A DNA stretch of 64,000 nucleotides, taken from Margaritifera margaritifera. Lineage: Eukaryota; Mollusca; Bivalvia; Unionida; Margaritiferidae. The stretch covers positions 124,001-188,000 of the forward strand of contig JAQPZY010000789.1 of the NCBI GenBank assembly GCA_029931535.1, read 5' to 3'. How positions within the stretch are numbered: the first letter of the stretch is position 1; every line of letters begins with the position of its first letter. A program made the translations under genes and the position numbers. The notes below the pieces were generated by a model. The model did no database searches and was not told the DNA's origin. It saw nothing but the letters and a program-made list of their open reading frames with translations. Below, piece by piece: positions 14,451 to 63,891 of this stretch.

Positions 14451-16217
14451 ATTAAATGAGCTCCAATGTAATAAAGTCTAAGATTTTTTGAAGAACTATT
14501 ATGAATATTTTCCGATTTTTTAGCGAGACAATGATGACTATATCTGAAAGAAATGTTTTCTTATATTAAGTTTAGATGGTGCACAAAATATGATCTAAGG
14601 TAGTTGTCTCAAGAAATAATGTACCGGAACTAATATTAATCAATTATTCTCATTAAACTTCCCATTTCTTACATCAAGAAAAGTATGCATCCATGTTTTA
14701 AGAAGGCTGGATAATTGCATTTGAATTTTTTTTAATGAGCATGACGTCGAAATTTCGATCACTATTGGTGAAAATAAAATGTAGAAATGTGCGAAATATA
14801 TATTAGGAATTCAGTTTATATTTGATACAAACTTATTGTCAGCATCTTTTCAGCTGCCTTCATACTATACGTTCAACGTTAGCCAGATCAATCTATAATG
14901 ACACGACAACAATAGAAAAACAGAGGTACAGCATTAGGCTGTCTGCCACACGACTATATAGACTTAGTTATTAAGGTCTTGAACAACTTAAGTTTAAGGT
15001 AGGTAAATTAAATTTGATAAATAAAATTAAAGTTATTTTTAAGATAATGTATGCTCTCAGCACAATTTAATATAATTTGATTATCTCAGTTACAAATTTA
15101 GTTTAATACATTCTATTATTACAAGTTATGCGTCATTCTCTATGACCGGCTTATCAGAGCCTATCTTTAGTTTACCTGTATATAGGTCTCTGTGTCTAAT
15201 TTATTAAATTAAAAATCTTGTTGCTATTTATAATCTTTGTTTTCCTGTTTACATGATTCATTGATTAGTTCGTCTAGTCATACCATATTTATTAATATAT
15301 TCTTTCTTAAATGCTATATATGTTGACATATGAAATAATGGCTTGTAGACATCCATAACTAAATGCATCTATATTGTTATATCATAGGAGCTAAAAACAT
15401 AGGAATATCTGAATTAAAGAGTGACGGGCAGTATCCCGCCCACTTCGTGGGTCAAAGGCGGTAAGACATTCATTTATGTAGTAACGGTTATAATCTCTCG
15501 ATCATGTATTTCAAATGTTTATCTTCATTGCATTATGTGCATGGTTTTGGGAAATAAAATTTACATTTTTTACAGACAATTATTTTTGTCTGACTTTTGG
15601 TTTTAGTATTATTTTTAGAATTAATCTCTCAATTATGTGTTTGAAATGTCTAGGTTCATTGCATTAGATTCAGTGGGTATTTTTAAATGTATTGTGCTGG
15701 CCTGGGCGTCATAAACACAATTTGTGTTCGTGTGGTTGTTGGTTTTTATCCTTGTACCCTTGTATAGACTGTGGCGGATTTGCAGTGGTATTATATTTAT
15801 TTAGCTGGAACTGAAAACAATTATTCTCGACAATAAGCTAGAATATTTCGCCATTGTAAAGTTGTGCTAACAATCTGTACATCTGTTGACTTTTCAAATG
15901 ATAAAATATTGATCAGTAACAAATTTCTAATACGTATATGCTACATGCTTTCACAAGGCATTAGAACAATTAAAGCGTACAAACTGTAAGTGTCCAAGTA
16001 GTTTCTACGGGGATCTACCTGAAGAAACTGCGGACGGAAGCATGTATTTTAAAATAAGGCAAGATATTTAATGAAATACAAGGACACGTCAGATTTACAC
16101 GTATATCAACATATGGATACTAACCCAAACCCAGCTTCACTGTATACATACATTTTATCTTTCCTGGAAAGAGTAGGCAGTTACTGCTTCACAACTGTAC
16201 GATAAATAGACCCTTTG

Positions 16218-20511: not shown

Positions 20512-20559
20512 AACAAATGGGGTCCTTATGAGAACATGGAGACCAACTGAGGTACCCGC

Positions 20560-21655
20560 TGGAGACGAGTGGTCAGTGAGCTATCAAATGGTAGGTCCTA
20601 GGTCATATCGACAGGAATTTCTTAGTCCAGCCCATGAAACTTTCTTGGTTGGTTATTTAGGAGTCAATAAGACTTATCAGAAAATCTTAAGTCATTTTTA
20701 TTGGCAGAAACTTAAAAGTGAAGTTTCTAAATACTGTAGATCTTGTCACACTTGTCAAATGGTAGGAAAACCCAATCAGATGATACCTAAGGCTCATCTG
20801 CAAACTATTTCTGCTTTTGACGAACCATTTAGCAGAATAATGATAGACTGTATCGGTCTCTTACCTAAGACTAAGTCAGGCAACCAATATTTGTAGACCA
20901 TAATGTGTGCGTCCACAAAATTTCCAGAGGAAATTCCTTTGAGAAATATTAAAACTAAAACCATTGGAAAAGCTTTGTTAATTTTTTTTAACTCTTGTTG
21001 GCCTTCGCAAATCTGTCAAGTCTGATCAAGGGTCCAAGTTTATGTCTTGAATTTTCCAACAAATTATGCATGAATTAGGCATTCAAAAGTTTAAATCTTG
21101 CGCCTACCACCCTGAAAGTCAAGGGGATTTGGAAAGATTTCATTAAACTTTGAAGAATATGACTCGGTCATATTGCTGTGATACAGGAAATTATTGGGAT
21201 GAGGGTGTTCGTTTGCTGTTAGGGAATCAATTCAAGAATCGTTGGGTTTAAGTCCTTTTAAACTGGTTTTTGGACATACTATCCGTGGACCATTGACGTT
21301 ATTGAAAGAGAAACTGATTTTAAATGAAGATTCAAAGATTAATCTTCTTGACTATGTCTTTATTTCAAATATAAGTTGTCAAAGGCTTGTGGAGTAGCAG
21401 GAACTAATATCCACTCTACCCAGTCAAAAATGAAATTAAGGTATGACAGAAATGCAAAGGAGGGGAGTTTTCAGCCTGGTGATAAAGATCTGGCTCTCTT
21501 GCTCATACCTCAAAATCCTCTTGGCGCTAAATTGTATGGTCCTTATACAGTTGAAAAGAAAGTAAATGACTTAAATTATAACATTAATACTCATGGGAGG
21601 CGGAAAAAGAAACAACTGTCATATAAATATGTTAAATGGGTAATTTGACCGAGAT
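20560..21655 (+). pseudogene. Retrotransposon integrase with GPY/F module
   Basis: An H-H-C-C zinc-binding region is visible: HETF, then H in ILSHFYWQKL, then CRSCHTCQ, about 20,635-20,760. The core follows with MIDCIGLLPK (first Asp, about 20,850), KSDQGSKF (second Asp, about 21,018-21,040) and a P-E-S-Q-G type segment with the Glu side near 21,108. GPYTVEKKVNDLNYNI near 21,537 is the GPY/F module typical of Ty3-type integrases. There is a stop at 20,894-20,896, then frame changes. It lies upstream of the RT, which is the unusual feature of the element. Confidence 0.8.
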
Positions 21656-34925: not shown

Positions 34926-35211
34926 TATCCTCTATATATCCTCGCTTATTGGATAGCTTATTGGAAATTGCCGAGTAAATTAAAGGAGAACAGTTAATAC
35001 TACACATACAAGAAAAGCAACAATGTTCAGGGTAAGTTATCAATCCTAACGTTTAATCGAAATAAATTACATTCCTATGACGGGCTTCGTGAAATTAAGG
35101 ATGATTAATGTGATATAACAACTTTGATAACACAGAAATATACTCTACGTCTCTCCACAGTATTTGAACAGGTACAAGCCTACAAGAGATATATCTACAT
35201 ATCGCATACAT

Positions 35212-36150
35212 TATTTAAATGCCAATAGTAGAATGCCTGGTGTTCATCATAGCTCCATAGGTCCATTACAAAATGTGTACTTGTTTTATTTCTAGTCAAT
35301 ATTTGGTCTTTACTGTTAGGGCTTAAACCTGAATGCTTGGCAACGTATGAATGTTATCAATGTTCTTATTATAGATAAAACTCCGTTCAATGATAATTTT
35401 GGCACGTAGGAGCCTATCTAGCTTGCGAGAAATAAGTGTAAAACGCGAGGCAAGGTCTTTGTGTCACACTTATCTGTACATGTCAAATTTGATGCAGCCG
35501 TTCATAACGAATCTGATTATATCTAATTATATGGATCATCAATAATAATATGAAAGTTATCTTGCAAAATATATGCCTTTTGACTTATTAGTTAACAATC
35601 TAAGTAAGCGATTGATTTACTAATGGGCAGACTGGCTAATTCATTTACTTACCAAATATATAAATAAATATTGCTTTAAAAGTAACTGGTGTTATGAGGT
35701 TGGTGTTATACCGCACAGCAATGATAGTAGATTATTTAGTGCCCATACAATTGGAGTAATGTGCCTTGCCGAACGAGGCACCAAGGTAGCCGACACGAGC
35801 AGTTTCGAAACTACACCCTTTCTGTTACGGGGCCGACACGCTAACCACTGAGCCACTGTGCCTCCTGCCTCCATTAGTTGACTATTACAACATGCAGGAG
35901 GGTCCAGAGGGCCTTTTCTACATCCCAGAAAGCGCAAAGGGCAAAGGTAATTTTGGGCTAAGAATCAACTTCTTAGATAAATGTTCGTGACTGCTAATAA
36001 GATGTTCTTTGACCCTTTTCAATCTCAGTTAAAATACCAAACACATAAAAAATATAAGTCTGGATGAACAAGTTTCTCTTTTTGCTTTATTTTGTTTTTT
36101 CATTGAAAAGTAGGTTATATGATAGAAAATCCTTTCAACATTAAATGCTT

Positions 36151-36214
<64 letters not shown>

Positions 36215-37186
36215 ACATAAATAATCGACGCTTAAAACTTTTAGAATGAAAACACAGACAGACATTAAGTTTATTCAAGGTCAACTCAATCTACACACAT
36301 AAATAAAAAGTACCAAATACTGATTTTTTTTTAAAGATATCGGTCAATGATCAGTAAATCTTACAGTGAAACGACGTATAACACTACATATGGATGTCAG
36401 GAAAACGTATGATTGAAGACTATTGTGTTCTTTGTCATCGTAAAAGTGCATAGGAATAAAAATACATTTTTATTCTGGCCTGATATTATATAGAATATGT
36501 TCATTCAAGAAATATGAGTGCAAACGCAACAACAAAGGCATACTCAGCGACGAGATTAGACTACTGTTTCATAAAATGTTAGTTCTCGAGGTATCAGACG
36601 AGTATGTATAAGTAATTCAATAAACGGAAAAGAAGGAAAATCGTGCTTTGCAAGGCTTATGTGAAAAAAAACGTCTGATATACTGAGAGCAAGTCTACAG
36701 ATTTTCATACATAACCAGGAAAGTAATTTTTCAAATTGAAATTTCCGGTGTAACTGAATTGTATGCACACAGTTTCAGTTGTGTCTAGTTTAGTTTCATT
36801 CACGTGGTCGACCGGCTTACTATGGCACATGCAAAGTGCTGGCGATATAAACTAATTTATCTCATGTTTTCTGTTCGTCGCTCCAGTATATACATTTCCA
36901 CGTACTAGTTTATACAGTTCCACGTACCAGTATATTCAGTTCTATATTGCAGTATACTCACATTGCTTCATGCCTGATCTGGATGCTGTCTCCTTTTACA
37001 ATAGTAATCTTTCAGCTGTAGAGGTATATTACAATTGCATACGTTCTTTTCTTTCTATCATCAATGTTTGATAGAGTAGTTTGCTAAGTTCGATTATTCT
37101 AAATTTGGTCCTACAAAACAATTTGGTCAGAAAAAAAATTCACATAACACAAAAACTATCAGATTTAATATAGTCTGTTTCAAGTA
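35212..37186. repeat. 2-kb dispersed repeat, copy 2
   Basis: Collinear partner of 4,215-6,198 in direct orientation. It includes a better preserved SINE and a longer pure AT microsatellite (36,152-36,211). No ORF is shared between the two copies, which argues against coding function. Confidence 0.8.
35692..35875 (-). mobile_element. tRNA-derived SINE
   Basis: On the minus strand the head reads GGCTCAGTGGTTAGCGTGTC (A-box region, about 35,838-35,857) and then GTTTCGAAACT (B-box region, about 35,798-35,812), with Pol III spacing. The body runs to the TAACACCAACCTCAT end near 35,692. Copy 1 of the 2-kb repeat has the same block at 4,716-4,870, so the SINE was present before the two copies separated. 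Confidence 0.75.
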
Positions 37187-46647: not shown

Positions 46648-46795
46648 TGAACGTATTTACAAGGTTGACAACGTTGTGGAGTAAGACTAGACTTTCAGTC
46701 ATCTAGTACAGTGTAATTTTGCCATCGATGCACACTTCGTTTATGAGCTAAAGAAAATAGACAACCAAAAGTTTGAAAAAACTACCTTTCTCTTT
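46648..46795. other. Non-coding segment shared by elements A and B
   Basis: Similar by eye to 53,495-53,640 and, inverted, to 61,745-61,880. Shared stretches include ACAACGTTGTNG, TAAGACTAGA, CAGTGTNNTTTTNCCATCNATG and GAGCTAANGAAAATAGA. No ORF is shared. Its retention in two diverged elements suggests common ancestry and perhaps a functional non-coding region. Confidence 0.6.
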
Positions 46796-50899: not shown

Positions 50900-51065
50900 T
50901 TAAACGGCATGATGATGACTTCTGCTTCTTTTTATAGTCGATGACTTGTGAAGATGCAATCCAAGAATCGAAACGGATTCAATATCGTACACGTCGTTTT
51001 CTTTCTTATTCACTGGTTGTAACTCAGGCAAGTAAAAAGTTCCTTTTAACACTTCTACGTTCATA
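50900..51065 (-). pseudogene. Integrase C-terminal end, 3' piece, split by element B
   Basis: The minus strand is open from the element B insertion point to a TAA at 50,900-50,902. It encodes KGTFYLPELQPV and DVYDIESV, the pattern of the chromodomain-like C-terminus of integrases from virus-like elements. The 5' piece lies at 63,886-64,000. The frame stays open across the site if element B and one target duplicate are ignored, so the insertion interrupted a gene that was still open at that point. Confidence 0.6.
51060..51065. repeat. Target-site duplication, left (TTCATA)
   Basis: TTCATA directly precedes the AG-starting terminus of element B and recurs directly after its other terminus at 63,886-63,891. 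A 6-bp duplication is the Polinton/Maverick signature. Confidence 0.88.
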
Positions 51066-51230
51066 AGTAGTATAGGTGGGGTACTGGGGGTCTAGGGGGT
51101 CTCCTATGTTAAAAAGGGTAAAAAGAATATAGGGTCAAAATTTATAGGGTCATGGGAAATGGAACATGGAGGGGGTACTTGGGGGTTATACGAGAAAGAG
51201 GAACAGCCGTGAAGCACTTGGGGGTCATAC

Positions 51231-51271
51231 ACACACACACACACACACATACACACATATAATTATATATG

Positions 51272-51336
<65 letters not shown>
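51231..51336. repeat. (AC)n and (TA)n microsatellites near left terminus
   Basis: An AC run at 51,231-51,257 and TA runs to 51,336. The matching position in the right arm (63,631-63,722) has an AT run and a GT run of different lengths, so the repeats have drifted independently. Confidence 0.95.
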
Positions 51337-51338
<2 letters not shown>

Positions 51339-51497
51339 TAATAATGAAAAAATAATCTTTTCTTTAAAAATGGATAGTGAACATCTCATAGAGGGTCTTC
51401 TTTTCCTTAGACTTCGTCGGACTTAAGGCCCGTAGATCAATACCCGCTTCAAGCACCCTTGTCGTTCCACATAAATTCTTCGTTTCCAGAGGGCTGT

Positions 51498-51602
51498 CTA
51501 GGTCATCTTCGTAATCGCCCATGAGGGTTTGACATACATGGGATAGTCCTGATTGAAGAGCATTCCCGAGACGATGTTCGATGATTCCACTGAGCAATAC
51601 AT
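51498..51602 (-). pseudogene. Short element B gene, left copy, truncated by nonsense codon
   Basis: Same ATG-started frame as 63,404-63,583 (MYCSVESSNIVSGMLF). Here a TAG at 51,498-51,500 replaces the GAG-containing codon of the right copy, leaving 34 codons. The AATAAA of the right copy reads AAGAAA here. Either this copy is dead or the frame was never coding. Confidence 0.4.
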
Positions 51603-51806
51603 CTTGAGAACCGGTGAAGCTTTATGAGACAAGCGGTAGTATATATAGCCTAAGAGTGAATCGAAATGGATCGAAATGAGCTAGCAATCCAATGGCGCGT
51701 TACAAGCTGGTAGGTTTTTCTTCCAATAGGAAGAGAGCGGGGTGTGACGTCATCTTGAGTATATAGGCATCACAGCGTTCGTAGAGATTTTACCTTGAGC
51801 GGCATA
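51603..51806. promoter_or_regulatory. Divergent promoter with CRE, CCAAT and two TATA boxes
   Basis: Between the short minus-strand gene (ATG 51,602) and the coiled-coil gene (ATG 51,807). A perfect CRE, TGACGTCA, lies at 51,745-51,752, 8 bp before the TATA-like GTATATAGG (51,759-51,767). CCAAT occurs at about 51,690 and 51,724. A TATATATA box for the minus-strand gene lies at about 51,646-51,655. Known roles: CREB/ATF and NF-Y sites; use here is inferred. Confidence 0.6.
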
Positions 51807-52428
51807 ATGGAGACAACGAAGACCATGTATTGGAGTGAGCCTGCGACGACTACAGCAGCGAATGCCGTAGTGAACTTCCAACCGGAAGATTTTAATTTAG
51901 ATTTTGGGGATTTTCTGTCTTCTTCTCAAGAATTTGTGTCTGACAAAACGACTGCTGCTATACCACCAGCCTCTTTGCCTGTCATGGACGATTTCAAAAA
52001 GAGGCAAAAAGAAGAATTGGAATTTTTTTTTACAGCGTCAGAGAGTAGCCAAAGAAGTTTTTCTTCAGCAAGAAGAGAAAAGAAGAAAACAAGAAGAAGA
52101 AATAAGAAAGTTAGAAGAGGAAAAGGGTGAAGAACCGAAGGAAGTGAGCGAGGAAAACAAAACGGTGAGTTTGTTACAAGACATTTTACCGGAGTTAAAA
52201 AATCGGAGAAACATGTATCAGATTTCTTTAAAACAACCTAAGAGAAAAAGGCCATCACGGGCGAAACATTCTAAACCCATCACTACTAGTGAGATGCTAC
52301 CACCACCACCACCACCATTCACTACTACAACCACCAAAGCAGCAGCAGCAGGAGGAGGAATAGGACTTGGTCGTGAAAAAGGATTGAGACAGTTGAAGCT
52401 GATCATGTCCAGTCCACAAGTTTGTTAA
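51807..52428 (+). pseudogene. Coiled-coil, proline- and lysine-rich protein, left copy, one frameshift
   Basis: ATG at 51,807 (METTKTMYW) is chosen over an upstream TTG because it follows the promoter. The frame changes at a T9 run (52,023-52,031), then a charged coiled coil (EEKRRKQEEEIRKLEEEKGE), a basic stretch (KQPKRKRPSRAKHSKP), a PPPPPP run and a T/A/G-rich tail lead to TAA at 52,426-52,428, about 205 codons in all. No known domain; the basic segment suggests nucleic-acid binding or a nuclear signal. A histone-type stem-loop begins 13 bp after the stop. The right-arm copy lacks the first half. Confidence 0.6.
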
Positions 52429-52440
52429 AAAACAAACACC

Positions 52441-52466
52441 CCAAAGGCCCTTTTCAGGGCCACCCA
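52441..52466 (+). terminator. Histone-type 3' stem-loop, left arm
   Basis: GGCCCTTTTCAGGGCC (52,446-52,461) forms a 6-bp stem with a UUUC loop, preceded by CCAAA and followed by ACCCA: the replication-dependent histone mRNA 3'-end signal bound by SLBP. AGAATAGATGA, 10 bp further on, is a weak purine-rich downstream element (U7 site). It lies 12 bp after the stop codon of the coiled-coil gene, in its sense direction. Confidence 0.85.
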
Positions 52467-52722
52467 GATCTCTAGAATAGATGATCATTCATTTTGCCAA
52501 ATCAAGTACAACTTTAAACCCATTCTTTGGTTTGTGTAAGAGTGAGTACGTGCGTGCGTGCATCCATACTCTAAAAACAAAACTAAAAGACACTTACTTT
52601 TTTCCATTCTGGTCTATTCTCTTTTTTTTTTACAACAAAATCACAATGAACATAACACCACACTCAAAAAAAGTTCATCGTTCACTGTCTGTCTCTCTTG
52701 TTCTTGAATTTATTCACAGGGA

Positions 52723-53163
52723 TCAAGGGTTCTTTTTCTTCTTCTTCACTATCTTCCAGTCGTCTAGCTTTCTTGCTTTTCTTGACGAGGGGGATGAGTT
52801 CTTCTTCTTCTGGGGCTGAAGATCCCTCTGCTTCCTCTCTCTCTGGTAGGTTTTCTTGTTTCTGAGGACACTCTGAAGACCAATGTCCTTTTTCTTGACA
52901 GTGATAACAGGTATCTTTCCCTTTGTCTCTCTTTTCTTTTCTTTGGTTTTCTTGACGTTGTGGACATTCTGGAGCCCAATGCCCTTTCTCTTGGCAGATG
53001 TAGCAAGTATCTTGACTTTTATTCGAGAGGCAATGGAGGAGTAGTCCTTTGTCTTACTGGTATACTTTCCAAGCACTCGCTGTAAAATTCTGATAGCCGC
53101 AGACGTCTGTTGTGCTAAATCTCTGAACAGACGGGCAAACTTTTCTGACTTCTTCTCTTCCAT
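52723..53163 (-). pseudogene. Two-zinc-knuckle (CCHC) protein, left copy, frameshifted
   Basis: Same start as the right copy (MEEKKSEKFARLFRDLAQ). One base is missing relative to the right copy near 53,023, just after the codons for IASR, throwing the zinc knuckles out of frame. A TATA-containing palindrome CTCTCTATATATAGAGAG lies upstream at about 53,215-53,232. The apparent 146-codon ORF mixes a true N-terminus and an out-of-frame remainder. Confidence 0.75.
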
Positions 53164-53494
53164 CTTCTCTGTTTGAAAGTGGAATCACGAATAGTGATTC
53201 TGAGGGTAGGAAGGTCTCTCTATATATAGAGAGAGACCCCGTGTTAAACTTATGACAATTAAAACATACACCCCTTAACTCCAACAAACAAAGGGTAGGA
53301 GTGTTATGGACACACTACTAAACCCTGATATACAACCATACTATACAATCACGTACACGTAGGCAAGGGTAGGTGTACTTATGGGCACACTACTATACCC
53401 TCACACAAACATAACTATCACAAGAGAATGGGTTTTAAGTTTTAGTGTACAACATAGACAAAGACATACACAAACGTAAAAATATTGGCAATGA

Positions 53495-53640
53495 TACAAA
53501 GTTCAAAACGTTGTAACGTAAGACTAGAGGTCCAGTCCTTTGGCACAGTGTCGTTTTACCATCAATGGTCACTACTTTTCTGAGCTAACGAAAATAGATA
53601 ACCATCATGTTCACAAAACCACTTTTTTTATTAACCTTTA
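53495..53640. other. Non-coding segment conserved with element A
   Basis: Counterpart of 46,648-46,795 and of 61,745-61,880 in the right arm. AC-rich DNA at 53,270-53,480 separates it from the zinc-knuckle promoter. No ORF of note. Confidence 0.55.
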
Positions 53641-53844
53641 CCTTCACTCGTGGAGTATTTTGACTTTCTACTGTGGGCATAGTGCACAGAAAGTAGCATC
53701 ACTTGAACATTCTTATACAATATCAAAGATAAACATTAACTTCAATACATTTACTTACTAAAAGCTAGTAGTGGCTAAAGTTTACTACCCTGCATACACG
53801 CCGTTTCGTACTGATTGACCTAGCCACGCGAACAACGTCTTTAC

Positions 53845-54153
53845 CTACTGTGAGCAGTGTACACAATGAAATATTGTCAAATGAACGCAGTAATAATTTC
53901 CAAAAAATCTATGGTTTGCCTCAAACAGAGAGAAGGTTACCCTTTCTTTGAGTTTCTGAAGACAAGGGTAAATTCTGTGATAGAAATGTTCATTGGCAAA
54001 TTTTTTTTCATTCATCGGTTTAAAAAAAGTAGTGTTATATTTCTTGTCGAATGACTGCAGTAGCATTTGTTGTATACCTCCCAAATATTTAAGATGTGTT
54101 ATGTTTTGGTGCACACGCCTTGCGGCTACAAACAATGTTACAACAGTTCCCAA
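53845..54153 (-). other. Arm ORF without ATG, left copy
   Basis: About 102 codons (LFVAARRVHQNITHLKYLGG onward) open in both arms; only a TTG could start it. About eight base differences separate the copies over this length, five changing an amino acid, which shows no sign of protein-level constraint since the copies separated. It may be a 3' exon or fortuitous. Confidence 0.35.
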
Positions 54154-54895
54154 AACCGAAGACGGGAGAACAGTAAAATCTAATCCAGTAAAATCCTTCT
54201 TTTGAAAACGTAGATGTACAATTCCTACAAAATATTACATCCAAACGTTCCGTGATGTATTTTGACTTAAGGATGATACTATTTCCATCGATCACAAATT
54301 TTACGATGGAGTTGTGCGTTAGCTTTTATTTTGTTACGAGACTAACGGTCAGACACAGACAAACAAGTCTATTCTTCTCACTGTGTCAATAGCAACTGAG
54401 GGCGATTCAAAGCGAACGCGGTAAGAAAATATTTGTAGCCAATGAAATTACTTATAATGAGTGACGAAGTGTTTTGTTATAGATTCCAGACAGGTAGTGT
54501 GGCAAAATAATGCCTATGGTCTGGCTTTTTACGATTGCGGTGCAGACAGACTAGAGGGAATTTGCAATCATGTTAAGAATTCGTGTTCTGTAACATTTTT
54601 TCTCGCCACGCTAAATACTGAACTGTAACATTATTGGCTCGGGGTTTTGAAACTGAAAAGAAATGTTGTCACTGAGTCATTTTGACAACATACACACACA
54701 CACATAGGTAGAGAGAGAGAGAGAAGGGCTACACTATTTAGGGGTCGTTTTTTTCAAGCTAGTGAATTTGGAGGCTTGTATGAAGTTACGATTTCTGGTA
54801 CAGTTACAAGTTTCTGTGTTTGGAAAATGGCAAACATCGGATAGACATTTGTGTCGTGACACATGTAAAGTTGAGAGTCTTTGCTAGTTTCAAAA

Positions 54896-55847
54896 ACCAC
54901 AAATCAATAACTGCAACTTCAAAGAATCAACATAGAACGAACTCCAACAACAGCAATAACAACTTAATTACCAAACCAAACTAACTCTCAATTGCAAAAA
55001 AGATAACAAACACATCACTAAATGATCTCATGCTACAACCATTCCTAACCTGATATAGAACAAAACCCAAATTCCGATATAGTTTTCAATCACGTCCGCG
55101 CAAAAACTGATTTCAATTCTACATGAAGCACTAAGCTACAGACAGAGCATTCCACCCAATACAGACAGAGCATTCCACCCAAATTTCGATATAGTTTTCA
55201 ATCACGTCCGCGCAAAAATTAATTTAAATCCCTTTCCACGCCACAATATATACATGCAACACAGAACCCGATTATCGATATAGTTTTCAATTACGTCCCC
55301 ACAATCGCAATTTTCAATCCATTCCAAAATGTATTCTCAATCATTATTAGAAATAAATTATAACCCACAAAGAGTTTTTAAAAAAAAAAATTATTTTTAT
55401 TTTTTATAAAACACAAACACAAACCACACAACAATTTTAAAAAAGTTTTTATTTTTTATTTTTTAATCAAACACAAACACGCACACCACACAACCATTTT
55501 TAAATAATTTTTTTTTATCAAACACAAACACACACCACACAACCATTTTTAATTTTTTATTTTTTTATTTTTTAATCAAACACAAACACTTACCACACAA
55601 CCATTTTTTGAGAAAAGTTTTTTATTTTTATTTTTTAATCAAACACAAACACACACCACACAACCCTTTTTAAATTTTATTATCAAACACATACACCAAA
55701 CGTTCACTCTATACAAACACACACCACACTTACATTTTTTAGAAGGAATTTTTTTTTCCGTGGGAAGACAAAGACAAAGACAAACACACAAACATACAAA
55801 CACAAAATGTTTAGGCAATATGATAGTGGTTATCTTTTCTAGAGATC
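54896..55847. repeat. Element B centre, non-coding: spaced and tandem repeats
   Basis: Three copies of GATATAGTTTTCAATCACGT, the first two continuing CCGCGCAAAA, begin at about 55,077, 55,189 and 55,280. ACAGACAGAGCATTCCACCC occurs twice at about 55,138 and 55,161. From about 55,405 to 55,735 five or so units of ATCAAACACAAACACACACC, CACACAACC and T-rich linker recur every 60-75 bp. Repeats of this kind often mark replication origins or packaging regions; that role is inferred. Confidence 0.7.
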
Positions 55848-55873
55848 TGGGTGGCCCTGAAAAGGGCCGTTGG
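55848..55873 (-). terminator. Histone-type 3' stem-loop, centre
   Basis: Minus-strand GGCCCTTTTCAGGGCC with ACCCA after it; the 5' flank is CCAAC instead of CCAAA. The following AGAAAAGATAA is a good purine-rich downstream element. It starts 15 bp after the stop of the packaging-ATPase frame, in its sense direction. Confidence 0.85.
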
Positions 55874-55887
55874 GTAAGAAGTTGTGT

Positions 55888-56459
55888 TTAACTTCTAGTA
55901 GCAGTAGCCGCAGCAGCAGGGCGGCCACGTTTTGCCACTGGTCTCATGGCTGTAGGACAAGCTCTCCTTCTGGTGAAAGAGAAGGCAAACTCATCACAGT
56001 CCATTCTGCAACTGACTTCTCCGTTTGGTTGTTTCAGCTGCTGCTGCTGCAAGAGTTGTTGTTGTAGCTGCTGTTGTTGTCTTTGGTGTTGCTGCTGCAC
56101 TCTTTGTCTCTCCTCCCATTCCGTTCTCTCCTTGATGATTTCTTTTTTTAGGATTTCTTCCACCAGATCTTGAGCCATTTGCAAAAAAGATCGTCGTCTT
56201 CTTTGTTTAGCTAACACTTGCACTTGATATTTGTCTCTGGGGTTTTTAAATAACACCACGTAATGAGCGTTGAGACTGATGGTACGATGGGCTTTACTTT
56301 GTTGAAATACATTTTGAGTAATGTAAATGATGCTGGCATTCCGATGATGTCCTTTTCGTGTAAACTAAAGTTTATTTTCTTCTTCGTCTTCTCCTAACAT
56401 GTCGTCGAAGATGACCAGATGTGTTTGATTCACGTCAGACACGATCCCATCGTCTTCAG
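55888..56459 (-). pseudogene. Packaging ATPase, C-terminal half only
   Basis: FtsK/HerA-type (A32-like) genome-packaging ATPase of Polinton-like elements. The minus strand shows HLVIFDD (Walker B, about 56,399-56,419), IYITQNVF (sensor-like segment, about 56,313-56,336) and LNAHYVVLFKNPRD (about 56,240-56,281), then a charged helix and a glutamine-rich, basic tail ending ATRS at 55,888. No Walker A is present: the sequence upstream is polymerase. A stop or frame change lies between Walker B and the 56,259-55,888 open stretch. The polymerase frame ends in this same region, so the two genes were joined by a deletion. Confidence 0.72.
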
Positions 56460-59400
56460 ATTTCGTACACTTTCAACAAGCGGTATCCACAATCCAGAGC
56501 CCGAAACATTTCGACGCTGACCCACGTTCCTGTCAAAGCGCGTTCTTCCTCCGTGTGGTGACAGGGGTGATCTTGGTTACATGTTTCGGCGCACGTACGA
56601 CATAAAGGAAACATCAGTTTTCCTTGGCAATGATTAGGTAAGATAGGATGGTACAAGTGGGTCGGTGGTAATACTTTACATTTGATCAATCCTTCGTATT
56701 GACGAATGTGTTCCACGTCGATGTGTTCTGTCAAGATTTCAGGGTGTCCGGTAGGAAATCGAGCATATTTGCACACCCAAGGATACAACAAACACACGTC
56801 GAGGTATTTGATTTCTTCTCCTCTTGATTCTTCTACGTCGTACAGCATACCCGTGGCATTGGTTCGTCCTCCAAACAAACTGTGGCTTGGATCCAAAGGC
56901 TCGATGTCGACAACGTCGTAACTTTCGGCAATGCGCCTAAATTCATGATCGGTTTTGAAACGTCGATCGTACTCGTGCTCCCACATTTCTACCACTTGGT
57001 ATCCTTGACTTTCTAACTTTAGTCGTCGTTGGTAAGTGCGTTCGTACAAGCCTTCCATGCTGGCTCCCGTGAGAGGATTTTTCATGTCTCGTTGAGGAAA
57101 ACAGGTAGGCCATCCGTGAAACAAGCAGCCCTGAAATTCGTACACCGTGTGCGGGTTTTGTAAATCCCAACCATCCACTGAAAGACTGCCTATTTTCTTT
57201 TCTCCTCCTCCGTTTCAGGTATGTTGTATCCATTTGTCTTCTTTCTGGCACAAGTAATGGAGCCAACGCAAAGCTTTGGCCGAGTATTGACGACTGGCAA
57301 AGAGAGACGTTTCCGAGTCTGATGGCTAGTTATTTCTCAGGCATGACGTTTTTGATGTACACTAAGGTACAGGCTTTAGGTAGGGTGCACGCTTCCTTCA
57401 AAGGATCGACTTCTCCGTGATCTAGAAATAACTGTCTAAACTTTCCACAGCAACGGCGTAAAATGTCCACATTGGATCGACAATACTTCAGCATTTCTTC
57501 TTGGAAGTCAAACGGTTCTGACTGGTGAGCGTTGTACCAAGCGTGAAAGGCTTCTCGGTGTTCTTGGTGCATTCCGTCGGGGTCGTAATAGTCAACGTCA
57601 TGCAAATGCCGTAGCACGGCGTGTTGATTGGCTTCCGTATTGAAGAAGTGAGGAAAATATCCTTTGGCCATTTATGTCATGCCAAATGTTTTAGGCATTC
57701 GATTCAAAGGCATGGCCAAATAACTCATGGAATCTTTGAATTGTACTTGTCCCACTTTCATGTAGATGAGTTTGGTTCCGTTCATGGTGACTTGGGGGCA
57801 TTCGGTACCTTCTTGCGAATAATATTTTAACAAACACTGTCCATCGTATCCCGAGAAATTGTGAGCCATGACGGTCGCATAGCGATGACAGTCTCCGTAA
57901 CGTTGAATGTCCTCTTCGCTCCAAGTGTCGTCGGTAGGGTCTAAAATCCATTGAGCAAACTCGGACAGAGTGTTGGAACCACGAAAGATTTTTTCACGTC
58001 CTCCTGGAATCCTACTACAATGAGGACAGTGAACGTGGATAGGTTCTTGGATTCACTTCTCACAAGCCCGATGTGCGACGCAGAAATTGGGGATGTGAAT
58101 GCCTGTTTCTTGCACGCATTCAAAATCAAAAAAGATGAAATCCACTTGGTTCTTGTTTTGATCCCTCTTTGATTCTTTCTTCAGTGTATTATCGTACTTT
58201 TGAATGAAACATTGATGATCAAAGTCCACCATCTGCTTGCAAATGTGGCATCTTTTCTTTCCGGTACAAGTGTGTCTCTTGGGATCGTTGGTTTGAATCA
58301 GGTGTCCACACGTGGAACACAATTTCAATAAGTCGCAAGCGCTTTTCTGCTGGTGAGCATGTGTTCTGCGATGTTGTTCGTAACAAGAGGGACTGACAAA
58401 GGTTCGTCGACACGTCTCACAATGGACGTGTTGTTCAGGAAGGCATGGTTTGGCAGCTAAACAGCCCCAACATCTCTCTCCGCAATGAATGTGTCGCACT
58501 CGACTGTTTAATCCTTGCTCACATTTCTCGCAGTAGTAAGAGTATCCTAGAAATCCTGTGATACTGGTGATGGCATAGAAATGTTCTCGATGGTGATAGA
58601 GGTGAATGTATTTTCCCTCGGATAAATCGGGTCCTCGAAACAGCAGATCTCCGCGCACTTCTTGAGGGTGTACTTTCAAGGTGTAGTGAGGAGCCCAGAC
58701 GTCTTGAAGTTGTTGCGATTGAGAAATGCCACACACTGTGTCTTTGGGTATGCCTGCTTGTCGTAACAGGAGTTCTGCTTCGTTTCGTTGTTTGGCTCTG
58801 TCCGATTGTCGAATGTTCTCCCAGGTACGTTTCCATTCTGCGGTCTCGTTCTTGTCGGCATACGTTCGCCCCACCACGATGGCGCGGGGCCAAGCACATA
58901 TGGTCTTGAGAATTGTCAAGTTGGACGACACTGCGTTTGGTACTGCGAAGGTCGTCCACCAGTAACACTTTCCTGCTTCGTCCGCTACCTCGAGGAGGGG
59001 AGACATGAGTCATGTGAAGTGTGGCCGTTCCATCCGTCATGGCAAACTCTTCGTTGGATTGTTGAACGTGTTCTGTTTTGGTCATGACTTTGGCTGGTGT
59101 TAATTCTGCCGGGGTACTGAACTCGATCCAGACAGGCGACTTCAAACTGTCGTGATGGATGGACAGTCTCAATCGATCGTCCTCTTTGGCTCCACATTGT
59201 CGTTTCAAGTTCTGTAACACAGAATCCCACAAATCGGTAATGAACCCTGCAGCTTTCTCGGGAGGCACCTCGGACTTGAAGTCTTTAAAGCGAACCGCGT
59301 AAGCGTATGCCGTGGTTCTAAATTTTCTAGAGGTCACTTTTTGCGTCTCTCGAATCCGATAGTAATTTTCGGGAGCCACGGTAGGACTTTCTTGGTCAGG

Positions 59401-59592
59401 GGTGATGGATTCTTTGGGTTGGGTAGAAGGTACGGTTTCAGGCTCACTCATCTCTTCTTCGAAATCGCTAGCATGGACTTGAGCTGGCACTTCAGCGAGC
59501 GGTGTTTCAGGCGGCACGGAAAGTCTTCGTCGTCGTGGCCTCTTCGTTTCTTCTTCTTCCGTTTTCTCATGGAGATTGCTTGATCTTTTCAT
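56456..59592 (-). pseudogene. Protein-primed-type family B DNA polymerase, truncated and frameshifted
   Basis: ATG at 59,592 follows a TATA box. The acidic/basic N-terminus leads to a conserved N-terminal region (59,330-59,000), a frame change near 58,990, and a Cys-rich part with repeated CxxC pairs (58,550-58,200). Exonuclease motifs follow: IFFDFE (about 58,120-58,137), AHNFSGYD (about 57,845-57,868) and YCRSNVDIL (about 57,458-57,485). Palm motif A region LDVCLLYP lies at 56,779-56,802. The frame ends at 56,456; the later palm motifs, including the catalytic aspartate pair, are missing. At least four frame changes or stops separate the open pieces (59,592-58,986; 59,006-58,053; 57,869-57,672; 57,671-57,330; 57,178-56,456). 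Confidence 0.85.
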
Positions 59593-59640
59593 AGACTCTC
59601 TCCCTATATATATACCCCTGTCTCTACCTATGTTTGTGAT
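59593..59640 (-). promoter_or_regulatory. TATA box of the polymerase gene
   Basis: TATATATATA at 59,605-59,614 sits only 13 bp before the ATG, in a context (CTCTCCCTATATA) that resembles the promoter region of the zinc-knuckle gene. The close spacing implies a very short leader or a downstream start. Confidence 0.4.
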
Positions 59641-59880
59641 AATGGCTTGCTTTACTTAAAATTTGCCAAAATGGAAATGCCTAGGAGCAATAGAAAGCTA
59701 TGTGACGTTAATTTTGAAACTAGCAAAGACTCTCAACTTTACATGTGTCACGACACAAATGTCCATCCGGTGTTTGCCATTTCCCAAACACACAAACTTG
59801 TAACTGTATCAGAAATCGTAACTTCATACAAGCCTCCAAATTCACTAGTTTGAAAAAGACGACCCCTAAATAGTGTAGCC

Positions 59881-59963
<83 letters not shown>
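59881..59963. repeat. (TC)n microsatellite
   Basis: About 80 bp of TC with two interruptions. The same place in the left arm (54,709-54,724) has only about 16 bp of GA, so the tract has expanded in one arm. Confidence 0.97.
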
Positions 59964-59969
<6 letters not shown>

Positions 59970-60486
59970 ACCGATGTATGTGTGTGTATGTCAAAATGAC
60001 TCAGTGACAACTTTTTTTTCAGTTTCAAAACCCCGAGCCAATAATGTTACAGTTCAGTATTTAGCGTGGCGAGAAATAATGTTACAGAACACGAATTCTT
60101 AACATGATTGCAAATTCCCTCTAGTCTGTCTGCACCGCAATCGTAAAAAGCCAGACCATAGGCATTATTTTGCCACACTACCTGTCTGGAATCTATAACA
60201 AAACACTTCGTCACTCATTATAAGTAATTTCATTGGCTACAAATATTTTCTTACCGCGTTCGCTTTGAATCACCTTCAGTTGCTATTGACACAGTGAGAA
60301 GAATAGACTTGTTTGTCTGTGCCTGACCGTTAGTCTCGTTACAAAATAAAAGCTAACGCACAACTCCATCGTAAAATTTGTGATCAATGGAAATAGTATC
60401 AGCCTTAAGTCAAAATACATCACGGAACGTTTGGATGTAATATTTTGTGAGAATTTTACATCTACGTTTTCAAAAGAAGGATTTTA

Positions 60487-61216
60487 GTAGACTATGTCTC
60501 CAATTCAATCTTGTGATATTTTACCGAAAACAAAGAGGATTTTTTTCCTATCGATGTGATTTTTTTAATGGAATGTGTGTTTTTGAAATTTCTTAAGGAA
60601 AATATACCATAAAAACGTAAGTTTCGTGATATTTTTAAAAGTAGGAATAAACTATTCTCTCTCTCTCTCTCTCTCTCTATCTCCGTCGTTATGTCATTTC
60701 TCTCTGTTTCACAAACACACACTAAGTTTCTTATACAATGATTTCGATTGAAATGATAATGATATCTGTTCCCGTTTTTAAGATGCCTCTTCACAAATGT
60801 TGTCAGTAGTCACAACGATTACGTGAAATGTGACGTTAGTTTTGCAAATTTTTCAAAAACTTGCACCCCTTAAAAATTGTACAGCGATTTTTCTTCCATA
60901 GGTAAATCGTTGGATTATATCAAATCTTGAGTTTAGTTGTTCTTGTGCATGTCAGATATCTTAGCTTTGTTCCTATTTTGGTACTGCAATGTGTCACAAA
61001 AATTTTCTAGATGTACCGTTTTCCGAAGGAAACCAAAACAACAAGCACATAGCTTTACGGTGTAAGAATGATTCCAATATGACCCGTCCAATTCTGCACT
61101 CTATAACCCGTCACATTCTGCACTCTCATTCTTGAGCCCAAACATGCGTTCAGTAAAACTGTAACAATGTATGCCCTATTTTCAGTCAGTCCATTTTAGA
61201 CTGTCGATAAACAAGA
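60487..61216. other. Segment present only in the right arm
   Basis: The arms match up to GAAGGATTTTA (60,486) and again from TTTTTACTGTTCTCCCG (about 61,220), while the left arm has only about 14 bp between. The extra DNA holds a TC run and a background ORF (60,794-60,492, minus). It is either an insertion here or a deletion in the left arm; no duplicate or terminal repeat was seen. Confidence 0.7.
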
Positions 61217-61555
61217 CGTGTTTTTACTGTTCTCCCGTCTTCGGTTTTGGGAAATGTTGTAACATTGTTTGTAGCCGCAAGGCGTGTGCAGCAAAAGATA
61301 ACATATCTTAAATATTTGGGAGGCATACAACAAATGCTACTGCAGTCATTCGACAAGAAATATAACACTACTTTTTTTAAACCGATGAATGAAAAAAAAA
61401 TTGCCAATGAACATTTCTATCACAGAATTTATCCTTGTCTCCAGAAACTCAAAGAAAGGGTAACCTTCTCTCTGTTTGAGGCAAACCATAGATTTTTTGG
61501 AAATTATTACTGCGTTCATTTGACAATATTTCATTGTGTACACTGCTCACAGTAG
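61211..61555 (+). other. Arm ORF without ATG, right copy
   Basis: Open from a TAA at 61,208-61,210 to TAG at 61,553-61,555, counterpart of 53,845-54,153. Its first internal ATG is at codon QQMLLQ. It begins right at the arm-specific segment, so if it is an exon its 5' part differs between arms. Confidence 0.35.
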
Positions 61556-62142
61556 GTAAAGACGTTGTTCGCGTGGCTAGGTCAATCAGTACGAAACGGC
61601 GTGTATGCAGGGTAGTAAACTTTAGCCACTACTAGCTTTTAGTAAGTAAATGTATTGAAATTAATGTTTATCTTTGATATTGTATAAGAATGTTCAAGTG
61701 ATGCTACTTTCTGTGCACTACTTCACGAGTGAGGATAAAGGTTAATAAAAAAGTTGTTTTGTGAACATGATGGTTATCTATTTTCGTTAGCTCAGAAAAG
61801 TAGTGACCATTGATGGTAAAACGACACTGTGCCAAAGGACTGGACCTCTAGTCTTACGTTACAACGTTTTGAACTTTGTATCATTGCCAATATTTTTACG
61901 TTTGTGTATGTCTTTGTCTATGTTGTACACTAAAACTTAAAACCCATTCTCTTGTGATAGTTATGTTTGTGTGAGGGTATAGTAGTGTGCCCATAAGTAC
62001 ACCTACCCTTGCCTACGTGTACGTGATTGTATAGTATGGTTGTATATTAGGGTTTAGTAGTGTGTCCATAACACTCCTACCCTTTTTTTGTTGGAGTTAA
62101 CGGGTGTATGTTTTAATTGTCATAATTTAACACGGGGTCTCT

Positions 62143-62210
62143 CCCTATATAGAGAGATACCTTCCTACCCTCAGAATCACTATTCGTGATTCCACTTTCA
62201 AACAGAGAAG
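62143..62210 (+). promoter_or_regulatory. Promoter of the zinc-knuckle gene
   Basis: TCTCTCCCTATATAGAGAGA places a TATA-like CTATATAG at about 62,145-62,152, some 60 bp before the ATG at 62,211, room for a short leader. A near-palindrome CAGAATCACTATTCGTGATT follows at about 62,172-62,191. Confidence 0.45.
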
Positions 62211-62624
62211 ATGGAAGAGAAGAAGTCAGAAAAGTTTGCCCGTCTGTTCAGAGATTTAGCACAAAAGACGTCTGCGGCTATCAGAATTTTACAGCGAGTG
62301 CTTGGAAAGTATACTAGTAAGACAAAGGACTACTCCTCCATTGCCTCTCGAGATAAAAGTCAAGATACTTGCTATATCTGCCAAGAGAAAGGACATTGGG
62401 CTCCAGAATGTCCACAACGTCAAGAAAACCAAAGAAAAGAAAAGAGAGACAAAGGGAAAGATACCTGTTATCACTGTCAAGAAAAAGGACATTGGTCTTC
62501 AGAGTGTCCTCAGAAACAAGAAAACCTACCAGAGAGAGAGGAAGCAGAGGGATCTTCAGCCCCAGAAGAAGAAGAACTCTTGATCCCTGTGAAGAAATTC
62601 AAGAACAAGAGAGACAGACAGTGA
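62211..62624 (+). CDS. Two-zinc-knuckle (CCHC) protein, right copy, open
   Basis: A 137-residue protein: charged N-terminal helix, then CYICQEKGHWAPEC and CYHCQEKGHWSSEC (residues about 60-73 and 89-102), both C-x2-C-x4-H-x4-C as in retroviral nucleocapsid knuckles, then an acidic E-rich stretch and a basic end (KKFKNKRDRQ). Likely a single-stranded nucleic-acid binder in the nucleus or in particles. It is the only arm gene that looks intact; the left copy has one missing base. It converges on the coiled-coil gene of the same arm. No AATAAA was seen close after the stop. Confidence 0.78.
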   Translation: MEEKKSEKFARLFRDLAQKTSAAIRILQRVLGKYTSKTKDYSSIASRDKSQDTCYICQEKGHWAPECPQRQENQRKEKRDKGKDTCYHCQEKGHWSSECPQKQENLPEREEAEGSSAPEEEELLIPVKKFKNKRDRQ

Positions 62625-62837
62625 ACGATGAACTTGTTTTGAGTGTGGTGTTATGTTCGTTGTGATGTTGTTGTAAAGAAAAAGAGAATAGACCAGAATG
62701 GAAAAAAAGTAAGTCTTTTAGTTTTGTTTTTAGAGTATGGATGCACACACGCACGTACTCACTCTTACACAAACCAAAGAATGGGTTTAACGCTGTACTT
62801 GATTTGGCAAAATGAATGATCATCTTTTCTAGAGATC

Positions 62838-62863
62838 TGGGTGGCCCTGAAAAGGGCCTTTGG
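62838..62863 (-). terminator. Histone-type 3' stem-loop, right arm
   Basis: Minus-strand counterpart of 52,441-52,466, identical over the 26-base core including CCAAA and ACCCA. The next bases include AGAAAAGATGA, a better purine-rich downstream element than in the left arm. It lies after the coiled-coil gene of this arm. Confidence 0.85.
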
Positions 62864-62920
62864 GGTGTTTGTTTTTTAACAAACTTGTGGACTGGACATG
62901 ATCAGTTTCAACTGTCTCAA

Positions 62921-63222
62921 TCATTTTCCACGACCAAGTCCTATTCCTCCTCCTGCTGCTGCTGCTTTGGTGGTTGTAGTAGTGAATGGTGGTGGTGGTG
63001 GTGGTAGCATCTCACTAGTAGTGATGGGTTTAGAATGTTTCGCCCGTGATGGCCTTTTTCTCTTAGGTTGTTTTAAAGAAATCTGATACATGTTTCTCCG
63101 ATTTTTTAACTCCGGTAAAATGTCTTGTAACAAACTCACCGTTTTGTTTTCCTCGCTCTCTTCCTTCGGTTCTTCACCCTTTTCCTCTTCTAACTTTCTT
63201 ATTTCTTCTTCTTGTTTTCTTC
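62921..63222 (-). pseudogene. Coiled-coil protein, right copy, 5' half deleted
   Basis: Keeps the charged helix, the basic stretch and the P-run of the left copy, but 300 bp with the ATG and first part of the gene are gone: CACAGCG joins directly to AAAAGAAGAAAAC near 63,222. A small indel pair near the end brings in an early TGA (GLGRGK then stop at 62,921). The promoter with its CRE is kept upstream. Confidence 0.7.
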
Positions 63223-63403
63223 TTTTCGCTGTGATGCCTATATACTCAAGATGACGTCACACCCCGCTCTTTTCCCATTGGAAGAAAAACCTACCCGCTT
63301 GTAACGCGCCATTGAATTGGTAGTTCATTTCAATCCATTTCGATCCACTCTTAGGCTATATATATACTACCGCTTGTCTCATAAAGCTTCACCGGTTCTC
63401 AAG
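63223..63403. promoter_or_regulatory. Right-arm copy of the divergent promoter
   Basis: The CRE TGACGTCA is kept at 63,252-63,259 and ATTGG (CCAAT) occurs at about 63,278 and 63,316. TATATATATA at about 63,357-63,366 lies about 40 bp before the ATG at 63,404. Retention of these boxes while the adjacent gene lost its start suggests that the short gene still uses it or that too little time has passed. Confidence 0.55.
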
Positions 63404-63583
63404 ATGTATTGCTCAGTGGAATCATCGAACATCGTCTCGGGAATGCTCTTCAATCCGGACTATCCCATGTATGTCAAACCCTCATGGGTGATTACGAAGA
63501 TGACCGAGACAGCCCTCTGGAAACGAAGAATTTATGTGGAACGACAAGGGTGCTTGAAGCGGGTATTGATCTACGGGCCTTAA
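63404..63583 (+). CDS. Short element B gene, right copy (59 codons)
   Basis: ATG at 63,404 follows the TATA box; the product starts MYCSVESSNIVSGMLFNPDY and ends LIYGP. AATAAA at 63,605-63,610, 22 bp after the stop, gives it a normal poly(A) signal, in contrast to the stem-loop genes. A second frame (from a TTG at 63,409) is also open. I do not recognise the family. Confidence 0.45.
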   Translation: MYCSVESSNIVSGMLFNPDYPMYVKPSWVITKMTETALWKRRIYVERQGCLKRVLIYGP

Positions 63584-63630
63584 GATGTTCACTATCCATT
63601 TTTAAATAAAAGATTATTTTTTCATCATTA

Positions 63631-63708
<78 letters not shown>

Positions 63709-63722
63709 GTGTGTGTGTGTGT
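63631..63722. repeat. (TA)n and (GT)n microsatellite near right terminus
   Basis: Inverted counterpart of the repeats at 51,231-51,336 with different lengths. Confidence 0.95.
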
Positions 63723-63885
63723 ATCACCCCCAAGTGCTACACGCCTGTTCCTCTTTCTCGTATGACCCCCAAGTGCCCCCTCCATGTTTTATTTCCCATG
63801 ACCCTATAAATTTTGACCCTATATTCCTTTGACCCTTTTTAACATAGGAGATCCCCTAGACCCCCAGTACCCCACCTATACTACT

Positions 63886-63891
63886 TTCATA
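63886..63891. repeat. Target-site duplication, right (TTCATA)
   Basis: Directly follows the CTACT-ending terminus of element B and matches 51,060-51,065. Confidence 0.88.

Follow-up and report, generated by a model that had tools for sequence, protein, structure and literature searches.

The window analyzed here is a stretch of 64,000 nucleotides from the bivalve Margaritifera margaritifera (contig JAQPZY010000789.1, positions 124,001 to 188,000). It contains a Polinton/Maverick-type element of 12,820 bp (51066..63885 of the window) in which two genes, termed gene A and gene B, are followed by stem-loops resembling those at the 3' ends of replication-dependent histone mRNAs. The reuse of histone-type 3' stem-loops as Polinton gene ends is strongly supported at the level of sequence.

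The element, which has long inverted arms and is derived by internal deletion, was recognized by self-BLAST, by a target-site duplication, and by pieces of DNA polymerase B (PolB) and of an A32-type ATPase. The arms (51065-54895 and 59712-63886) are 88.5 to 97.0% identical when compared piece by piece in the self-BLAST. The termini read AGTAGTATAGG...CCTATACTACT, the end being the reverse complement of the start, and the inverted repeats begin with AGT, as Polinton inverted repeats do. Comparison of the flanks revealed a 6-bp target-site duplication, TTCATA, at 51060..51065 on the left and 63886..63891 on the right. With these features, the element of the window is treated here as a Polinton.

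Gene A, which encodes a coiled-coil protein with a basic tail, lies in the left arm (51759..52428, plus strand) as two overlapping open frames (51759-52130 and 51901-52428) and is homologous to the region 1403-2101 of another copy of the element (L069). Upstream of gene A (51740-51810) are TGACGTCA and a TATATA box about 45 nt ahead of the first ATG. The 3' part of gene B (55888..56203, minus strand) is Q-rich, has the basic tail KRGRPAAAATATRS, and is matched by BLAST in two further copies (L070 and L071); similar tails precede the stem-loop in L026, L030, and L035. Next to it lies a fragment of an A32-type packaging ATPase (56203..56457, minus strand; identified with the ATPase alignment, A1); deletions have joined this fragment to gene B near 56203 and to PolB at 56457. 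ATPase identity is limited to the first ~54 of the 158 residues of the frame that precedes the hairpin at 55,848, and it reaches 56203. Positions 56302-56457 are 91.7% identical to L069 9845-10000, where the L069 stretch stops, and positions 55,461-56,203 match a non-ATPase gene, gene B, near the opposite end of fuller copies. By this comparison, the frame before the 55,848 hairpin is a deletion product that joins an ATPase fragment to gene B.

The 16-nt hairpin GGCCCTTTTCAGGGCC occurs exactly at 52446-52461 (plus strand), 55853-55868 (minus strand), and 62843-62858 (minus strand). These are the only matches in the window at three or fewer mismatches, the chance expectation being 0.08, and none of the shuffled controls contained three matches. 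All three hairpins score above the gathering score (34 bits) of the Rfam model for the histone stem-loop, RF00032 (Histone3), with E values from 8.7e-7 to 1.4e-7. The stem-loop of gene A in the left arm (52441..52466, plus strand; 36.0 bits) consists of a stem at 52446-52461 and ACCCA at 52462-52466, with cleavage predicted after ACCCA. That of gene B (55848..55873, minus strand; 37.9 bits) has its stem at 55868-55853, again followed by ACCCA, and the third (62838..62863, minus strand; 38.1 bits) is the right-arm counterpart of the first. The hairpins at 52,441 and 62,838 mirror each other in the inverted arms, and the three copies of the signal counted in an earlier note on this DNA are therefore two distinct sites, although each of the three does match RF00032 above gathering. 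The flanks described in that note are present at all three hairpins, CCAAA or CCAAC on the 5' side and ACCCA on the 3' side, as is the purine-rich box, the candidate histone downstream element (HDE). The box starts at the 14th base past the stem and reads GAAAAGA behind gene B (55833..55839, minus strand) and in the right arm (62823..62829, minus strand) and GAATAGA, one base from the common form, in the left arm (52475..52481, plus strand).

The stem begins 17 nt past the stop codon of gene A in the left arm and 19 nt past that of gene B, so that the earlier description of hairpins lying shortly past a gene end and in its sense direction holds for these two sites. In the right arm, an earlier in-frame stop has left a 14-codon frame alone before the hairpin. 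The gene A and gene B sites share a cassette of ~67 bp that is 85 to 87% identical, while the flanking DNA is unlike by self-BLAST. A shared cassette of roughly 45 bp had been proposed before, but for the coiled-coil gene and the ATPase gene; the cassette is longer, and its second bearer is gene B.

Hairpin-bearing gene ends in the source genome

The genome from which the window comes (2.453 Gb in 1,696 contigs) contains the exact 21-mer GGCCCTTTTCAGGGCCACCCA, that is, the hairpin with ACCCA, at 2,007 places (1,009 + 998), and 1,644 of these have GAAAAGA 7 to 12 nt past ACCCA; the reversed controls gave 0 in both searches. Gene tails were read at the first 48 of 100 listed places, taking at each the longest frame with a stop no more than 80 nt from the stem. 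A frame of at least 80 amino acids ending no more than 40 nt before the hairpin was found at 25 of the 48 sites, and the median distance over all 48 was 18.5 nt. Five different tails, assigned by eye, account for 29 sites (G1, 13; G2, 8; G3, 3; B, 3; A, 2), and the other 19 are unassigned, several of them being broken or read in another frame. The G1, A, B, G3, and G2 ends have in common a stem-loop with a 6-bp stem and a 4-nt loop, mostly 10 to 30 nt past the stop, followed by ACCCA and a GAAAAGA box.

In 10-kb stretches of three copies (L069 to L071), RF00032 gave eight matches, six above 34 bits and two below (33.3 and 29.4 bits). They lie behind G1 and A in L069, behind B, G3, and G2 in L070, and behind B and G2 in L071, where the 29.4-bit match stands behind a frame that starts like G3. 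PolB, an rve integrase, and the A32 ATPase are all present in the stretches of other copies, the L070 integrase carrying a chromodomain. No RF00032 hairpin was found behind the PolB, integrase, and capsid-candidate frames in the three stretches, and the end of the ATPase gene lies outside them. The capsid candidate (L071:3521-4585), in which a double jelly-roll was sought, had no Pfam match. With the Polinton/Maverick (adintovirus-like) elements, this family thus shares the 6-bp target-site duplication, AGT ends, inverted repeats, PolB, rve integrase, and A32-type ATPase, and it differs from them in the histone-type 3' ends behind five of its genes. In L069, the G1 and A frames are divergent, with ~100 bp between them. 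Among the integrase copies, 109 scored places were 94 to 100% identical over up to 375 amino acids, and many were free of stops, so that the element family looks recently active.

Copies were also collected by protein similarity, blind to the hairpin. The searches with G2 and G1 gave 5,362 and 5,575 candidates, of which 150 each were scored; 40 of the 150 G2 places and 20 of the 150 G1 places at which the match reached the C terminus were picked by hand down the lists, and 131 bases were read at each gene end. A hairpin agreeing in at least 13 of 16 letters was present behind the stop in 39 of 40 G2 copies and 20 of 20 G1 copies (59 of 60 over both genes). An exact GAAAAGA accompanied it in 56 of the 59 hairpin-bearing copies, at offset 13 in 55 and at offset 14 in one, and a diverged G1 (72% identity over 76 amino acids; L020) has retained both hairpin and box. 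In the integrase control (20 copies from the upper part of the 109 listed), neither hairpin (0/20) nor box (0/20) was found within ~127 nt of the stop. The earlier note had suggested a reused 3'-end module, a view that the lack of a stem-loop in related copies would undermine. In the source genome, the five different gene tails, the 59 of 60 hairpin-blind copies (G2, 39/40; G1, 20/20), and the 0 of 20 integrase ends all agree with such a module.

Pairwise identities were calculated with gaps scored as differences and ragged ends included. In G1, identity reaches 96.4% in the stem-loop and 99.1% in the box, compared with 58.1% in the spacer between stop and stem, which varies in length, and 45.0% from ~28 nt past the stem. 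The corresponding values in G2 are 90.6% for the stem-loop, 99.1% for the box, and 43.9% downstream. Of the 354 stem pairs in the 59 sites, 346 are of a standard type. Changes that break a pair, or a displaced stem, are seen at six sites, and L123 shows a full compensatory change. Among exact matches to single-base variants of the hairpin genome-wide, C3T, which keeps a U.G pair, occurs at 1,147 places and the mirror change G14A, which breaks the pair, at 50. In the absence of selection on the RNA, both changes would be expected at about the same frequency.

Host histone genes and the origin of the signal

The canonical histone clusters of the host gave 17 RF00032 matches, all above the curated score and with spacing like that of the element sites. 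Fourteen of these hairpins were found by pattern, and 13 of the 14 sit 27 to 38 nt behind a histone frame. They have an ACACA flank, or ACTCA behind H1, and GAAAAGA-like boxes at offset 13 to 14. The remaining 3 of the 17 are identical to the 16-nt hairpin of the element and are followed by ATACA or ATGCA. Two of the three were checked, and both stand behind H2B, 29 to 30 nt past the stop; one H2B end and the gene A cassette also have ATCTCTAGAAAAGATGA in common, a run of 17 nt around the box. The presence of the identical 16-nt hairpin behind H2B indicates that the host evidently uses this very signal. The 21-mer that includes ACCCA was found in 0 of the 17 host histone stretches. Taken with the identity of the H2B hairpin, this points to the end of a histone gene such as H2B as the probable source from which the element captured its signal, which then probably spread among the element's own genes.

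The host genome contains large histone clusters and many histone-fold remnants. One repeated histone-fold cluster (L077; G000:C226:143000-148000) has no RF00032 match, unlike the canonical clusters. The abundance of histone sequence and the hairpin shared with H2B might be taken to mean that the exact matches are mostly scattered histone genes and pseudogenes, with the element sites as their chance neighbors. This explanation is extremely improbable, and for the sites examined, a subset of the 2,007, it is already refuted by the absence of the 21-mer from all 17 histone stretches and by the presence of the hairpin in 59 of 60 copies selected through similarity to element proteins. Judged by these sequences, the element sites do not represent mere remnants of histone genes.

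A capture from H2B is equally the starting point of a second explanation, in which a histone gene end was taken up once by an ancestor, duplicated among its genes, and amplified, and has no present role in RNA. Besides the H2B hairpin and the 17 nt shared around the box of one H2B copy, the common ancestry of the copies, the defective state of the window copy, and the 85 to 87% identity of the gene A and gene B cassettes over 67 bp are in keeping with it. Mere passengers, however, would not be expected at exact spacing behind five gene tails with differing DNA on either side, nor would pair-keeping changes be expected to exceed the mirror pair-breaking ones so far. The integrase genes lack the hairpin, and the ACCCA form is missing from 17 of 17 host histone stretches, which points to an established form of its own. 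We therefore regard passive carriage as unlikely.

Proposed use of the host machinery

We consider it highly probable that a Polinton family uses the hairpins as functional histone-type signals for 3'-end formation, with processing by the machinery of the host. The element gene ends resemble the replication-dependent histone 3' end (RF00032; SLBP, U7 small nuclear ribonucleoprotein [snRNP], and CPSF73) in the 6-bp stem, the 4-nt loop, the AC flank, the purine box at histone spacing, and the short distance past the stop. They differ from it in that they belong to genes of a virus-like mobile element and not to histones and in their flank, ACCCA as opposed to the ACACA, ACTCA, ATACA, and ATGCA of the host histones. 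According to an excerpt of PMC6303110, replication-dependent histone mRNAs are the exception among animal mRNAs in lacking a poly(A) tail, and the major histone cleavage site lies 5 nt past the stem, at ACCCA. An excerpt of PMC7026596 describes pairing of U7 with the HDE and assigns the HDE a role in U7-dependent cleavage. By analogy, host SLBP would bind the element hairpin, host U7 snRNP would pair with the GAAAAGA box, and CPSF73 would cut after ACCCA. The element mRNAs would then leave the nucleus without poly(A) and be translated and destroyed on the histone schedule. This would place the gene set in DNA-replicating cells (germ line, cleaving embryo, and dividing tissue), when replication of the element can succeed. 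We lean toward S-phase timing as the main benefit of the histone-type ends.

We give about equal weight for and against the further idea that the element has two expression classes set by the 3' end. The five small genes near the element ends, with histone-type signals, would be expressed solely in the presence of SLBP and during DNA replication, and the polymerase, the integrase, and probably other core genes would not be so restricted. When active, the family might also draw SLBP and U7 away from histone mRNA; hairpin copies number in the thousands in the genome, against 17 host histone hairpins read.

Hairpins also mark the ends of Mimiviridae transcripts, where, according to an excerpt of PMC4402537, the hairpin sequence is not conserved and viral enzymes cut and polyadenylate. 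Given that other large DNA viruses end transcripts in this way, the element hairpins could be generic palindromic 3'-end signals of the Mimiviridae type, with polyadenylation at the hairpin. The element hairpin sequence, in contrast, is conserved across copies and genes, and it matches the histone pattern in the stem and loop, in the flanks on either side, and in the downstream box, all of which makes a generic signal very improbable.

An AATAAA or ATTAAA motif lies ~190 to 230 nt past the stop of gene B copies, so that polyadenylation could serve as a fallback for 3'-end formation. This raises the possibility that the hairpin serves SLBP-dependent translation, stability, or storage (e.g., in oocytes) only and that most 3' ends are polyadenylated further on. 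The best-conserved part of the gene end, however, is the U7-type GAAAAGA box (99.1%), at offset 13 in 55 of 59 copies, and a role confined to SLBP therefore seems improbable to us. The motifs are also missing within 300 nt behind PolB, the L070 integrase, and the capsid candidate, so that their absence does not discriminate. An AATAAA near the CCHC zinc-knuckle gene of the window was considered as a contrast and set aside; it lies inside the reading frame of that gene in the left arm, and no right-arm counterpart is listed.

Several results weigh against working histone-type signals, among them the poly(A) motifs behind gene B just described. The copies share ancestry, and the 2,007 places are not 2,007 independent events; in the same way, the 1,147 C3T places may stem from few events. 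At 23 of the 48 sites read, the frame was shorter than 80 amino acids or more than 40 nt distant. The identity of the G2 stem-loop (90.6%) is barely above that of the spacer between stop and stem (87.8%), and the hairpin-less stretch behind the integrase is 95.8% identical among 20 copies, so that little can be concluded from high identity by itself. The window copy is defective, with split frames and deletions. A search for U7 with RF00066 found nothing in the source genome, and the controls for this model likewise gave nothing.

The remaining points on this side come from beyond the host. No relative turned up in scans of viral contigs with the gene B/ATPase frame, a PolB piece, and the ATPase alignment A1. 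Two hairpin patterns matched one and five viral contigs, respectively, and none of the viral contigs had a match at the RF00032 cutoff. Among genome contigs, the ATPase alignment found two (L002 and L003), neither of which has an RF00032 match even at an E value of 1, and this counts against generality beyond this host. L003, of which 20.6 of 31.9 kb were read, is a Polinton contig assigned to a bacterial genome bin of deep-sea mussel origin.

The pattern matches in viral contigs are regarded as chance occurrences, for L004 only provisionally. The single match (L001) lies inside a 784-codon phage-like frame in a contig with no Rfam match at gathering. RF00032 matched only two of the set of five, L004 at 27.5 bits and L006 at 22.2 bits, both below 34. 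L005 has its match in a phage-like frame, and L006 resembles L005.

Among the open-licence papers listed, no title or abstract opening describes mRNA ends of the histone type in Polintons, Mavericks, or adintoviruses. The terms "stem-loop" and "polyadenyl" are missing from the main texts of PMC8097293, on the vertebrate Maverick, and of PMC11071296, a preprint that includes adintoviruses. If the proposed processing is correct, the histone 3'-end machinery would serve, besides the histone genes, a large family of virus-like elements as its second user. It would explain how a replicating element could set its genes to S phase with no regulator of its own, and poly(A)-selected RNA sequencing would miss these transcripts.

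Other features of the element, the window, and related contigs

PolB of the window copy, of the viral/organellar type, is incomplete and lies in several frames (56457..59592, minus strand); its best piece matches DNA_pol_B_2 at 1.5e-10, and the region is 86% identical to L069 2967-6123. Remnants of G1, identified by BLAST with the G1 3' end of another copy, are found at the outer ends of the left arm (51378..51655, minus strand) and the right arm (63359..63579, plus strand). Both have lost the stem-loop and retain a purine-box remnant (51334-51373 and 63596-63635, respectively). The CCHC zinc-knuckle gene (52682..53184, minus strand; Pfam zf-CCHC, 9.6e-15) has a mirror copy at 62190-62624 on the plus strand, and the window scan gave no RF00032 match behind it. 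No integrase was seen in the window copy.

Gene A and the gene B tail had no homologue in the protein database at an E value of 0.01. Gene A and the gene B frame of the window gave a weak match to each other over 37 residues (E value of 5e-4), mostly inside the ATPase part of that frame. The LxCxE motif was found in none of the G1, G2, G3, A, and B frames examined. Behind gene B, at 55386-55678, are five tandem units of ~61 bp with many AATAAA/ATTAAA motifs on the minus strand.

L003 has a weak match to the type-P1 twister ribozyme at 15841-15905 (plus strand), with 28.9 bits compared with a curated score of 67.2. Polinton-type ATPases in L003 and in P0042 fall in bins named for symbionts (Thiodubiliella and Thiodiazotropha) and are probably misbinned host or virus DNA.

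Outside the element, a 132-bp stretch of the window (46658-46789) is 76% identical to 53495-53626, a sequence present inside both arms, and perhaps represents a shared short repeat. Direct repeats of 2 kb (4216-6197 and 35211-37183) are 71% identical. An endonuclease/exonuclease-type frame at 298-1563 and an Integrase_H2C2 frame at 20528-20896 probably belong to other mobile elements.
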